Shown: positions 18,061 to 22,768 of the stretch, piece by piece | How the letters are laid out: each line of letters begins with the position of its first letter | Numbering within the stretch: the stretch's first letter is position 1 | Assembly: GCF_000687145.1 (NCBI RefSeq) | Contig: NZ_JMFG01000035.1 | Coordinates: forward strand, 18,982-80,666 | From: Thermoanaerobaculum aquaticum | Lineage (GTDB): Bacteria; Acidobacteriota; Thermoanaerobaculia; Thermoanaerobaculales; Thermoanaerobaculaceae | Reading direction: 5' to 3' | Length of the DNA: 61,685 nucleotides | The notes under the pieces: generated by a model | The model's database searches: none | Seen by the model: only the letters and a program-made list of their open reading frames with translations | Told to the model about the DNA's origin: nothing | Program-made: the position numbers and the translations under genes

Positions 18061-18540
18061 ATGCGACGGGTGTTGCGGGAAGCAGCCTTGATTCTGGCGG
18101 CGGTGGCGGTGGTGGGCACCGTGGCAAACCTCCTCCCCGCCCGGCGTATCGCCTGGTGGGGCCAAGGGCAAGAACCACCCCGCGCCGGCCAAGATTTCCA
18201 GCTGCTCGATGTGGACAGCGCCCACGTCATGTGGGAAAGCTTACCCGGAGTGCTTTTCGTGGATACCCGCACGCCAGCGGAGTTCCAGGCCGGGCATCTC
18301 CCTGGGGCCGTTCGGCTGGAGCTCACGTCGCTTAAGGAGATGTTGACCCCCGAGCTCCGGGAGAAGCTTTCGCAAGCGCAAGCGGTAATCCTCTACGGAA
18401 GCTCGGCGGAAGCCGACATCGAGCAGCTTTTGGCCCAGGCGTTGCGCCGGGAGCTGCCTTCCCTGCCGGTTCCTTACGTGCTTACTGGCGGCTTTCCGCT
18501 TTGGCAGGCGGCCGGTTTCCCAGTGGAGGAAGGGTCATGA
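18061..18540 (+). CDS. Membrane-anchored rhodanese-like protein lacking the active cysteine
   Basis: A 159-aa protein with an N-terminal transmembrane helix (about 8-26) and a single rhodanese domain. The entry motifs V-D-T-R-T-P-A-E-F and G-H-L-P-G-A are intact. The active-site loop reads I-L-Y-G-S-S-A-E-A-D, with Gly113 where the sulfur-carrying Cys belongs, so sulfurtransferase activity is not expected. It overlaps the next gene by ATGA (18537-18540), implying translational coupling with the MauE/DoxX-like protein. A binding or structural role in thiol-redox chemistry is the most likely reading. Confidence 0.8.
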   Translation: MRRVLREAALILAAVAVVGTVANLLPARRIAWWGQGQEPPRAGQDFQLLDVDSAHVMWESLPGVLFVDTRTPAEFQAGHLPGAVRLELTSLKEMLTPELREKLSQAQAVILYGSSAEADIEQLLAQALRRELPSLPVPYVLTGGFPLWQAAGFPVEEGS

Positions 18541-19001
18541 GGTTTTTCCGAAACCCCTGGGTTCACCGTGTTCTCGCTTGGGTTTTGGGGGGGATTTTTC
18601 TTTACGCGGCGGTGCCCAAGGTGCTGGACCCCCGCCCGTTGCTCACGATCATTTGGGGTTACCGCATTCTCCCGGCCGGGCCCATTAACCTCGTGGCCAT
18701 TTACATGCCGTGGCTGGAGCTTTTTGTGGGGCTGGGGCTTTTGACGGGCTTTTTGCGGCGAGGGGCGGCGTTCTGGGCGTTTTTCCTGCTTTCGCTTTTT
18801 GAAGTGGCGCTTTTGGTGAACGCCTTTCGCGGCGTGAACGTGGCCTGCGGCTGCTTTTCCCAATCGGCCGAGGACGTGCACAACGCCTGGTTTCTGGTGC
18901 TGCGCGACCTCCCCATGTGGCTTGCCGCTGGGGTTTTGCTCTTTTTCGAGCCAAAAGCCAGCGAATCACCGGCAACGGCCGAAGGCCAATTGGCCGGCTA
19001 A
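18537..19001 (+). CDS. MauE/DoxX-like integral membrane protein
   Basis: A four-helix membrane protein of 154 aa with the family motif A-C-G-C-F (Cys104, Cys106) in the loop before helix 4. MauE-type proteins are thought to carry reducing equivalents across the membrane for disulfide handling of periplasmic proteins, much like a minimal DsbD. The start overlaps the rhodanese stop (ATGA); AGGAAGGGTC lies upstream. Together with the divergent diheme cytochrome this makes a compact membrane redox cluster. Specific partners are not in the window. Confidence 0.82.
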   Translation: MRFFRNPWVHRVLAWVLGGIFLYAAVPKVLDPRPLLTIIWGYRILPAGPINLVAIYMPWLELFVGLGLLTGFLRRGAAFWAFFLLSLFEVALLVNAFRGVNVACGCFSQSAEDVHNAWFLVLRDLPMWLAAGVLLFFEPKASESPATAEGQLAG

Positions 19002-19052: not shown

Positions 19053-20630
19053 CTAAATGAGCCGGCGGTAGTCCTTCCGCTGCAGCCGCCATACGGGAAT
19101 CCCGCAGAAACGATCCCCCTCCGGGCAAATGGGGGTTTTGCCGGCGGCTTTGCGAACCGCACAGGGTGGCAAAAGGAAGCGGCCAATTTCCGGGTCCACC
19201 GCGGCAATTTGCTCCGCTTCCTCCCACGAAGCTTGCCAGATTTCCTCCTGGGCGTTGTAGCAGAGGCGCATGCGGTGCTTGTGGTGGAGGTTTAAGAGAT
19301 CGGCAGACTCCACAAAGCGGATGGCCAGGGCGTTGGGCAAAAGGTAAAGCGCGTGCTCACGGCTTGCCCCCGCCCGCAAGAGCTTTTGCGCACCTTCCCA
19401 GGCGCGGCTGACGGCATCCTCAAAGAGGGAAAGAGCCTTCCCCCCAGCGTGCTGCACGAGCTTGGGCACCACCACATCCGGTTCTTCATCCACCACAGCC
19501 CAGAGCAGCGGGCGGGCGGCGGGCGTCATGCGATGGCGCTGGTCCTGGGAGTCGGCGGCGTGGGAGAGCTTCTTGGCAAAGGTGTAATGGGCGTGGTGCA
19601 GGGCCCGGGAGAGCTTGGAAAGCGTGGTGAGGTTCAGCTCCTCGCCCAGCAAGGTGTTGCGGCTGGGGTCCAGCACCAGGCGGATGGCCTCCGTGGTGGG
19701 AAGCTGCGCTTCCGTAACCCCCAGCACCGCCCGCACCGCAGCCGCTACGGCTTCCTGGTTTCGCTGTCCCCAGCTCATCAGGCGGGAGGAAAGCCCGCCC
19801 AGCTGGCGGTCAAACTCCTCCCGAAACGCCGCCGGTTGCGGGCTTGCGCTGTGAAACTCCAAAAAGCAGCGGTACTCCGGGGTTTCTTCCAGGGCAATGG
19901 GCTCCTGGAAAAGCTTCTCCAGTGTGGGATCCCACCGGAGGGCTTCCGCCACCATGGCTTCAACCACCGCGCGGGTTTCCTCCGGGACATCGGCCTGGGC
20001 GCACAGGCGGCGGTAGCGGAACAACGTAAGGCAGGAAATGGTGTGGTAAAGCGAGGTGAGGGTGGCCAGGGGCAAAACCGCCCGCGCCACCTCCTGGGCT
20101 TTCCGCTGGGTTTGCCGGGCTAGCCTCTCCGGGTGTCGCTTCCAAGTGGGAAAGCGGGCGAGAAGCTCTGCTTCGGCAATGGGCGAAAGCGCTTCCACCA
20201 GCTGCCGGTAAGCCGCATGCAGGTGGGCCACGGTGCTCTGGTATTCGGCTTTGGCATTTTCCGGCAGCGTGGGCGGCTCGTAAACTGCGTCCTCCGCCAC
20301 CGGCACGTACCTCTGGGACACCTGCTCGGAGTTGGCAAAGGGATGGGCGTGCAGGAAGGACCACACGAACTGCCGGGAAACCCCTTCAATGGCAAACAAG
20401 AAGTGCGCGTGCTGAAAGGTGGTGTGGTGGCCGGCCAGGTAAAGGGATTGGGCCAGCTTGTCCCGCCGGGCTAACGCCGCCTGCCGGGCCTCTTCCTCGG
20501 CCAGGTGCTCCCCGGGCACTTTTGCCGGCGGCACCAGCTGCGGCGAGTAGCAACTGCGAGCCGCCGCCACCGCCACATCCACAGGACGGGGGAACGCGGC
20601 CACCAACCTCACTTGCGCGGGTATCGGCAC
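19053..20630 (-). CDS. thyX: Tandem-domain ThyX-family flavin-dependent thymidylate synthase
   Basis: Predicted to make dTMP from dUMP using methylene-THF, FAD and NADPH. The protein is 525 aa, about twice a normal ThyX, with two ThyX-like halves. Half 1 has HHTTFQHAHFLFAIEGVSR and ends in S-Q-R-Y, but the signature R-H-R is replaced by H-A-H. Half 2 has HHAHYTFAKKL then D-Q-R-H-R-M-T-P, keeping R-H-R but losing S-x-R-Y. Both halves also carry the C-terminal ThyX helix (A-V-L-P...T and L-P-N-A...A-Q-E-E-I). I start at GTG 20630, where TACAAT sits 6 nt upstream; a TTG at 20645 is possible. No thyA is seen here. Confidence 0.8.
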   Translation of the reverse strand: MPIPAQVRLVAAFPRPVDVAVAAARSCYSPQLVPPAKVPGEHLAEEEARQAALARRDKLAQSLYLAGHHTTFQHAHFLFAIEGVSRQFVWSFLHAHPFANSEQVSQRYVPVAEDAVYEPPTLPENAKAEYQSTVAHLHAAYRQLVEALSPIAEAELLARFPTWKRHPERLARQTQRKAQEVARAVLPLATLTSLYHTISCLTLFRYRRLCAQADVPEETRAVVEAMVAEALRWDPTLEKLFQEPIALEETPEYRCFLEFHSASPQPAAFREEFDRQLGGLSSRLMSWGQRNQEAVAAAVRAVLGVTEAQLPTTEAIRLVLDPSRNTLLGEELNLTTLSKLSRALHHAHYTFAKKLSHAADSQDQRHRMTPAARPLLWAVVDEEPDVVVPKLVQHAGGKALSLFEDAVSRAWEGAQKLLRAGASREHALYLLPNALAIRFVESADLLNLHHKHRMRLCYNAQEEIWQASWEEAEQIAAVDPEIGRFLLPPCAVRKAAGKTPICPEGDRFCGIPVWRLQRKDYRRLI

Positions 20631-20636
20631 CGGCGG

Positions 20637-20642
20637 ATTGTA
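20637..20642 (-). promoter_or_regulatory. Putative -10 for leaderless thyX mRNA
   Basis: TACAAT on the minus strand lies exactly 6 nt before the GTG at 20630. If correct, the in-frame TTG at 20645 lies upstream of the transcript and cannot be the start. Confidence 0.5.
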
Positions 20643-20739
20643 CAACGCTCCCCGAGGTACCCGCTCAAACTTTCGTTTCCAGGGAAAAGCCGTGCTTGTT
20701 CGGCAATCTTCACAAATAGTTCGGAAACAATACCTGTGT

Positions 20740-20789: not shown

Positions 20790-21302
20790 ATGGAGCTGGA
20801 ACAGGCTTTGGCCGTCGCGATTGACTACGAAACCAGGGTGCGAGACCACTACGCCAATGGGGAAAAGGAAATTATGAGCCCCGAAGGCAAGAAGATCTTC
20901 CGGGTGATGGCGGCGGAGGAGCAGCGGCACCTGGAGTATTTGCTTTCCCGCCTGGAGGAATGGAAGAAAACCGGCCACATTGCCAGCCCCGAGCTTTCCA
21001 CCGATATCCCCTCGCTGGACATCCTCGAACAGGCGAAGATGAAGCTTGCCAGCGCGCAAAAAGGGCACGTGGCCACCCAGGGCGAGCTTGAGCTATTGAA
21101 AACGGCTCTGGAGCTGGAAAGAACCACCTCCGGTTTTTACCAGGACCTGGTCGCCAAGCTTCCACCGCAGTACCAGCCGCTGTTTTCGCGGTTTCTGGAT
21201 ATCGAGCGCGGGCATCTGGCCATCGTGCAGGCGGAAATTGACGCCATTGCCGGTCACGGCCACTGGTTCGACTTTATGGAGTTCGATCTGGAAGCGGGAT
21301 AG
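20790..21302 (+). CDS. Ferritin-like diiron protein (rubrerythrin-type erythrin domain)
   Basis: A 170-aa four-helix-bundle protein with two ExxH half-sites, Glu44-x-x-His47 (A-E-E-Q-R-H) and Glu139-x-x-His142 (D-I-E-R-G-H), plus Glu14 and a glutamate near 108-110, the usual diiron ligands. The C-terminal rubredoxin domain of true rubrerythrin is absent, so electron delivery must come from elsewhere. Likely roles are peroxide reduction or iron handling. A near-consensus promoter and a GGGAGGGG site suggest strong expression. It stands alone and ends at a terminator. Confidence 0.85.
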   Translation: MELEQALAVAIDYETRVRDHYANGEKEIMSPEGKKIFRVMAAEEQRHLEYLLSRLEEWKKTGHIASPELSTDIPSLDILEQAKMKLASAQKGHVATQGELELLKTALELERTTSGFYQDLVAKLPPQYQPLFSRFLDIERGHLAIVQAEIDAIAGHGHWFDFMEFDLEAG

Positions 21303-21379: not shown

Positions 21380-22768
21380 TTAAACCCGCGCTAACGCCTG
21401 GTCCAAATCGGCAATGATGTCGTCCGGGTGCTCGGCCCCCACCGAAAGGCGGATGAGGTTGTCGGGGATGGAGGCCAGCTTGCGGCCTTCCTCCCCCTGC
21501 TGCTGGTGGGTGGAGATGGCAGGGATGGTGGCCACCGACTTAATTCGCCCCAGGTCCGTGGCCCGGAAGATGCGCTGCAAACCGTCCAGAACCCGCCGTG
21601 CCGCCTCATGGCCCCCTTTCACGCAGAAGGAAAGCAGGTGACCGTAGCGGTTGACCTTTTCCCGGTAGCGCTGATCGTGCTCGCTGTCCACCAGCCACAT
21701 GTAGCGCCGGGCCAGGTGGTGCAGCGGGTAGGACTTAAGCCCGGGGTAGCTGACCTTTTCCACTTTCGGATGGCTCTCCAGGAACTCCGCCACCAAAAGC
21801 GCGTTTTCGGACAGCATATCCATGCGGCTGCGCAGCGTGCGGAGGTCGTTCAGGGTGAGTGCCGCCTGCATGGGCGAAAGGTTGGGGCCGTTGTCGCGGT
21901 TGGGCAAAAACTTGATGTAGCTGGCGAAGTCCTCGCGCAACTGCTCGTTGGGGATGTTGGTGACGATGGGCTTTCGGGCAATGACCGCGCCGGCAATGCC
22001 GAACCCCGAGGCGGTCATGCTCTTGGTCACCGAGTGCACCACGATATCGGCCCCGTGTTGCAGAGGGCGCAGCAACGCTGGCGTGGCCACTGTGGAGTCC
22101 ACGATGAGAGGGATTTGATGTTTGTGCGCCAGCTCAGCCACCGCAGCAATGTCGAAAAACGCCAGGGTGGGGTTTGAGGGGAGCTCCCCGTACAAGAAGC
22201 GCGTGTGCTCATCAATGAGCTCGGCCCATTCCTCCACCCGCTCCGGGTGCTGCACCCACCGCACCTCGATGCCCTTTTCCCTTTGGCGCACCGAAAACTG
22301 CTGGAACGTGCCCCCGTACACGTGAGCGGAGGCCACGAAGTTGATGGGCTCACTTTCCTTTCCCGGCAAACGCACCAAAAACGGTTCAATGGCGGACATG
22401 ATCGCCGACATGCCGGAAGAGGTGGCACAGCAGGCCGTTTCAAAATCGCAGCCGTACCCTTCCAGAAGCGCCAGCGTCCATTCCAGGTAGTAAACCGAAG
22501 GGTTGGCAATGCGCGCGTAGCACCAGGTGGGGATCAGGTACGCCAGGGCCGCTTCCAGCTCGTCGCTGTCGCGGTAGGCCTGGGAAGTGGCGAGGTAAAT
22601 GGGCTCGATAATTGCCCCCTGGTTGCGCTGGATGGCCTCTTCCACCGTGTAAAGCCCGTGCACCGCCACGGTGTCGAAACGCCATTTCTTGGCTTCCTGC
22701 CAGGCCCGCCGCCGCGCTGCTTGCTCCTCGTGGGCCATTGCCACGTACCGTGCCACACCGTCACGCAT
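21380..22768 (-). CDS. Cys/Met-metabolism PLP enzyme (trans-sulfuration family)
   Basis: Fold-type I PLP enzyme, 462 aa, of the cystathionine gamma-synthase / methionine gamma-lyase / O-acetylhomoserine sulfhydrylase family. Lys249 in HSVTKSMTASG is the cofactor lysine and Asp224 in I-V-D-S-T pairs with the pyridine nitrogen. A phosphate-binding S-S-G-M motif (about 117-120) and the active-site Y-A-R-I-x-N-P segment (85-90) are present. It carries a 35-residue N-terminal extension and an insertion compared with typical 380-400-aa members. AGGGAGGGC precedes the ATG. Whether it synthesises or degrades sulfur amino acids cannot be read from sequence. Confidence 0.88.
   Translation of the reverse strand: MRDGVARYVAMAHEEQAARRRAWQEAKKWRFDTVAVHGLYTVEEAIQRNQGAIIEPIYLATSQAYRDSDELEAALAYLIPTWCYARIANPSVYYLEWTLALLEGYGCDFETACCATSSGMSAIMSAIEPFLVRLPGKESEPINFVASAHVYGGTFQQFSVRQREKGIEVRWVQHPERVEEWAELIDEHTRFLYGELPSNPTLAFFDIAAVAELAHKHQIPLIVDSTVATPALLRPLQHGADIVVHSVTKSMTASGFGIAGAVIARKPIVTNIPNEQLREDFASYIKFLPNRDNGPNLSPMQAALTLNDLRTLRSRMDMLSENALLVAEFLESHPKVEKVSYPGLKSYPLHHLARRYMWLVDSEHDQRYREKVNRYGHLLSFCVKGGHEAARRVLDGLQRIFRATDLGRIKSVATIPAISTHQQQGEEGRKLASIPDNLIRLSVGAEHPDDIIADLDQALARV

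Follow-up and report, generated by a model that had tools for sequence, protein, structure and literature searches.

Tandem ThyX of Thermoanaerobaculum aquaticum: catalytic residues divided between two fused domains that probably complete each other's active sites

How could a thymidylate synthase of the ThyX type work when the two halves of its signature motif lie on different domains? This question is raised by a gene in the window, that is, the whole stretch of 61,685 nucleotides of Thermoanaerobaculum aquaticum DNA analysed here. The gene and its two domains are laid out as follows:

19053..20645, minus: tandem thyX open reading frame, 530 aa from a TTG start (open reading frame reading, Pfam and TIGR02170 matches)
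19860..20615, minus: domain 1 (D1), residues ~11-262, ThyX fold, keeping the dUMP/folate-side residues (Pfam 13-241; model against T. maritima ThyX, Z about 13.5)
19206..19805, minus: domain 2 (D2), residues ~281-480, ThyX fold, keeping the FAD/RHR-side residues (second Thy1 match; model of 281-525 against T. maritima ThyX, Z 13.0)

The true start is likely the GTG at 20630, which the original prediction had used, or a codon slightly downstream of it, since relatives align only from about residue 11-12 of the 530-residue protein. Two Thy1 stretches (Pfam PF02511) were found in this protein, with a whole-protein E of 5e-54 and 183.4 bits against a cut-off of 24.8, and D1 scored higher than D2. 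The curated cut-off of the NCBIfam family TIGR02170 (thyX) was also exceeded (115.1 against 87.9 bits). In the AF2 model, which was built from an alignment of 70 family members (mean pLDDT 88.3, pTM 0.85), each domain separately aligns to solved ThyX with a Z of about 13-14, and a fold search with the model returned ThyX as the sole family at high Z. Both halves have thus stayed ThyX-like, as had been claimed. A sequence search of solved structures found no tandem form among them.

The gene lies between a MauE-like membrane protein (18501-19001, plus) and a rubrerythrin/ferritin-like protein (20790-21302, plus), followed by a PLP enzyme of Cys/Met metabolism (21380-22768, minus). We saw no sign, among these three flanking genes, of an operon linking them to the tandem thyX.

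The residues that matter for catalysis are distributed over the two domains as listed here, with their conservation in a set of 99 tandem proteins of the same class (class 1):

20421..20429, minus: H73-H74-T75 in D1, counterparts of H53 (stacking with folate/flavin) and of T55 (FAD phosphate) in T. maritima ThyX; H73 and T75 99/99, H74 98/99 (roles from PMC11940539, PMC6514825)
20343..20351, minus: H99-A100-H101 in D1, at the place of the canonical R-H-R; H99 99/99, H101 95/99, A100 variable
20307..20318, minus: S110-Q111-R112-Y113 in D1, the S-x-R-Y dUMP loop; S, Q and R 99/99, Y 98/99 and F 1/99
20082..20084, minus: R188 in D1, counterpart of R147 (dUMP phosphate; from the subunit that gives S-x-R-Y); 99/99 (role from Arg166' of PMC5003785)
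19530..19547, minus: Q367-D-Q-R370-H371-R372 in D2, equivalents of Q75 and R78-H79-R80; Q367, Q369, R370, H371 and R372 all 99/99
19266..19268, minus: R460 in D2, equivalent of R174 (activates dUMP); 99/99 (role from PMC8316439)

The sequence agrees with what had first been noticed, namely H-A-H followed by S-Q-R-Y in D1, and R370-H371-R372-M-T-P in D2 (RHR codons at 19530-19538, minus strand) with no S-x-R-Y downstream. Across the 99 class-1 proteins, H73, T75, R91, H99, S110, Q111, R112 and R188 of D1 are invariant, as are Q367, Q369, R370, H371, R372 and R460 of D2, while A100 of the HAH is replaced among S, A and N. Because these motif residues are invariant or nearly so, comparison of the relatives tells us that the split did not arise by chance. 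By regular-expression count, S-x-R-Y in the first half with RHR in the second half alone was found in 120 of 122 tandem proteins from four classes. The two exceptions are one protein with SQRF and one with an extra S-T-R-Y in its D2, lying 12 residues past the RHR instead of the usual 10.

Canonical ThyX (TIGR02170, PF02511; T. maritima TM0449, M. tuberculosis ThyX) resembles the tandem protein in domain fold, in almost every key residue once D1 and D2 are pooled, and in genomic role. However, it is a single-domain homotetramer with four identical sites and a contiguous RHR/S-x-R-Y motif. Since the tandem protein has its RHR in D2 and its S-x-R-Y in D1, and so carries the two contiguously in neither domain, its sequence makes it a ThyX variant rather than a canonical ThyX.

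We mapped both domains onto ThyX of known structure, numbering canonical residues after T. maritima ThyX; the reference agreed with PDB entry 1kq4 from end to end except for one residue near the C-terminus, where the PDB letter was adopted. In a MAFFT alignment, class-1 D1 has the equivalents of H53, T55, S88, R90 and R147 at 100% and of Y91 in 98 of 99 proteins, and it lacks those of Q75, R78, R80 and R174. Conversely, class-1 D2 has Q75, R78, H79, R80 and R174 at 100% and nothing of the D1 set, and its abandoned S88, R90 and R147 columns are variable, no single residue exceeding 29% in any of them. Owing to a one-residue indel, the MAFFT alignment puts an H of D1, namely H99, in the H79 column; when aligned to M. 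tuberculosis ThyX, H99 stands at the first R of RHR, a placement uncertain by one residue. R91 of D1 is the counterpart of M. tuberculosis Arg87, from the same subunit as the S-x-R-Y dUMP loop. The split therefore extends past the motifs originally described, with R174 and Q75 going with RHR in D2, and R147 and H53/T55 with S-x-R-Y in D1. Over the whole enzyme, the equivalents of H53, T55, Q75, R78-R80, S88, R90, Y91, R147 and R174 are each present once.

This division can be compared with the published geometry of canonical ThyX, where each active site joins the RHR of one subunit to the S-x-R-Y of another (PMC6514825, PMC3498832, PMC5003785). Besides holding the flavin, the RHR subunit supplies R174 (R199 in M. 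tuberculosis) (PMC6514825) and, in PBCV-1 ThyX, the Q75 equivalent (PMC3498832). S88, R90 and Y91 of the dUMP loop come from another subunit than RHR (PMC3498832, PMC6514825), and the R147 equivalent, Arg166' in PolB, from the same subunit as that loop (PMC5003785). The T55 equivalent, Ser71 in M. tuberculosis, belongs to a third subunit (PMC6514825), and H53 is supplied by "monomer 3" (PMC11940539); across the labels of these two papers, we infer that both describe one role. D2 holds exactly the set of the RHR subunit (RHR, Q75, R174), and D1 holds the sets of the second and third subunits. On the other hand, the equivalent of R165, a third-subunit FAD contact, is missing from both class-1 domains, which counts against complementation between them.

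We then considered which thymidylate synthases are available to cells that carry the tandem gene. In the T. aquaticum genome (95.8% complete), this gene gives the only Thy1 match, and both ThyA and DHFR are absent. Had a second complete thyX or thyA been found together with lost conservation here, the original prediction would have been in difficulty; the outcome was in its favour, since the genome holds neither gene and the residues are invariant. This genome does encode a thymidine kinase, so the status of sole enzyme does not prove that the tandem ThyX is essential. None of 50 tandem-bearing genomes from many phyla has a full-length ThyA (weak partial matches to the ThyA family only, in 4 of the 50), and the Thy1 matches above cut-off in each are just the two inside the tandem gene. 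Of 197 Acidobacteriota genomes, ThyX occurs in 143 and full-length ThyA in 44; the two were never found together, and 10 genomes lack both. The ThyX profile matched twice in 101 of the 143 ThyX-bearing genomes, and the double-match genes whose sequence was retrieved were nearly all tandem, a few being phage-type ThyX or single ThyX split by an apparent intein. From this genomic pattern, tandem ThyX would be the thymidylate synthase of cells that lack ThyA.

The ten Acidobacteriota genomes with neither Thy1 nor full-length ThyA (G034, G075, G100, G108, G140, G187 and G195, of one genus, and G161, G171 and G196) are 93-100% complete, and most of them show a weak, partial match to the ThyA family only. 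A class-4 profile, in a search that had no positive control, matched no divergent tandem ThyX in them.

Considering all the above results, we propose with a probability of about 85% that the product of the gene is a flavin-dependent thymidylate synthase in which two fused, unequal ThyX domains complete each other, assembled as a (D1-D2)2 pseudo-tetramer where two sites are complete and two are lost. The proposal starts from the observed domains, residue split, conservation and lack of another thymidylate synthase, takes its fold from the model, and extends to assembly, number of sites and activity. D2 would hold the flavin through its RHR and also give the Q75 and R174 equivalents, while D1 would give the dUMP loop, made of S-x-R-Y and the R147 equivalent, together with the counterparts of H53/T55 on the folate side. 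By analogy with the homotetrameric ThyX relatives, two chains may pair like an ordinary ThyX tetramer to form (D1-D2)2. Given the three twofold axes of such a tetramer, a D2 that plays the RHR part would meet the two D1s, one as second and one as third partner, and D2' as fourth, and each complete site would consist of one D2 and the D1 domains of both chains, that is, three domains from two chains. Because both D2s would have complete surroundings and neither D1 would, two complete and two abandoned sites would be expected per two chains. The chemistry would be that of the usual ThyX, turning dUMP, CH2-THF and NADPH into dTMP via FAD. The original prediction had envisaged a fused heterodimer with one composite site per pair, the halves complementing each other across subunits. 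The complementation is supported by the published placing of RHR and S-x-R-Y on different subunits, and the pairing is refined, in that one D2 would work with the D1 of each chain and two chains would share two sites.

Complementation might instead take place inside one chain, D1-D2 being a self-contained unit with one site and no need of a second chain. Two subunits indeed suffice for the dUMP contacts (PMC3498832, PMC5003785). However, the flavin pocket of solved ThyX needs a third subunit, the source of H53/T55 (PMC6514825, PMC11940539), and since the second- and third-subunit residues are both in D1, each site would call for two copies of D1. We therefore regard a one-chain site as unlikely. 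We give even less credence, the least of any reading considered, to one working domain accompanied by a degenerate partner with a structural or regulatory part, with no complementation at all. Many tandem enzymes do carry one dead copy, and the better Thy1 score of D1 would fit such a history, but a simple dead-copy model predicts one complete domain, whereas here the residue set is incomplete in both domains, and the part retained by each has stayed essentially unchanged.

Scarcely more probable is a uracil methylase derived from ThyX that uses another substrate, with thymidylate coming from thymidine kinase salvage alone. PolB, a UMP/dUMP C5-methylase, is a precedent for such a change of substrate among ThyX relatives (PMC5003785), and the kinase gene that salvage would require is there. 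PolB shares with the tandem ThyX the fold and a substrate site built from two monomers (PMC5003785); it is, unlike the tandem protein, a single-domain homotetramer with an altered substrate preference and no duplication (PMC5003785). Against a change of substrate stand the retained dUMP-contacting residues, the lack of any other thymidylate synthase here and in 50 further tandem genomes, the absence of overlap between ThyX and full-length ThyA in the 197 genomes, and the absence of DHFR, which is expected for some ThyX users.

The tandem ThyX is not confined to T. aquaticum. The best 80 of 169 relatives from a scan of genome contigs are mostly about 50% identical over the full length, and their record titles name Acidobacteria, Planctomycetes, Nitrospirae, Myxococcales, Ignavibacteria, Verrucomicrobia, Sumerlaeota, Gemmatimonadales, Armatimonadetes and others. 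The tandem ThyX is a large, old and widespread family across many phyla. No tandem ThyX was seen in phage records; nine of these, archaeal virus ThyX included, gave a match to a single domain or a fraction of one.

Three further tandem classes (2-4) are found in Acidobacteriota, so divergent that the class-1 profile gives them only about 26-77 bits or no match. They show the same split in the same order: their D1 has S-x-R-Y plus the R147 equivalent, and their D2 has RHR along with the R174 equivalent, the latter at 83-100%. Class 4 carries D, in one case G, where H53 would be, and D takes the place of Q75 in classes 3 and 4. In classes 2-4, an Arg lies at or adjoining the R174 position of D1, so that R174 may not be lost there; the last R of RHR is often kept too. 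The replacements of H53 and Q75, like the doubtful loss of R174 from D1, weigh against the proposed complementation. In domain trees, the D1s of the four classes form one group and the D2s another (SH-aLRT 91/88; 85/62 without the motif columns), and this grouping favours one duplication behind all four classes. A tree with class-1 D1 and D2 forced as sisters, as in an independent class-1 duplication, was not rejected (p-AU 0.68) and its score was slightly higher.

Apparent inteins were met in several ThyX genes. In one tandem ThyX (L115/L155; genome G009, contig C2 near 97139), it lies directly before the S-V-A-E-H of D1. In a single-domain ThyX (L145; G174, contig C34 near 103495), it has an HNH-like segment and lies just before S-E-F-N-E-I-S-G-R-Y, and L144 (G086) is probably an intein-split single-domain ThyX of the same kind.

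Class 1 also has four invariant cysteines towards its C-terminus:

19056..19175, minus: C-terminal tail, residues 491-530, with C495, C507 and C514, each 99/99 in class 1
19260-19262, minus: C462, the fourth invariant Cys, 99/99 in class 1

The C495/C507/C514 tail belongs to class 1 only and was not seen in classes 2-4. It is possible that C462, C495, C507 and C514 make up a site for zinc or another metal. We can also imagine, more speculatively, an obligately asymmetric half-of-sites enzyme, in which the second pair of sites was given up or reused and a four-Cys metal site of class 1, beside the flavin domain, helps to regulate or reduce the flavin. One pointer to such reuse is that class-1 D1 keeps an invariant H99 and a nearly invariant H101 at the place of RHR.

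A domain-duplicated ThyX of Chloroflexi was remarked on as uncharacterised in 2009 (Biol Direct, PMC3224940), so the duplication itself was already known. Our likening of the two goes by that description, and the passages on it give no residue analysis or site model. The split active site appears to be unreported in the open literature, subscription papers having been mostly outside the search.

If our reading is true, nature has carried out, very widely, an experiment on which ThyX residue must come from which subunit. The enzyme would have two sites instead of four, and each catalytic role could be mutated alone, which is impossible in a homotetrameric ThyX. The building of ThyX alignments, inhibitors and trees of thymidylate synthases would be affected as well. 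Finally, the sole thymidylate synthase of many uncultured bacteria would be an asymmetric form that is annotated plainly as ThyX.
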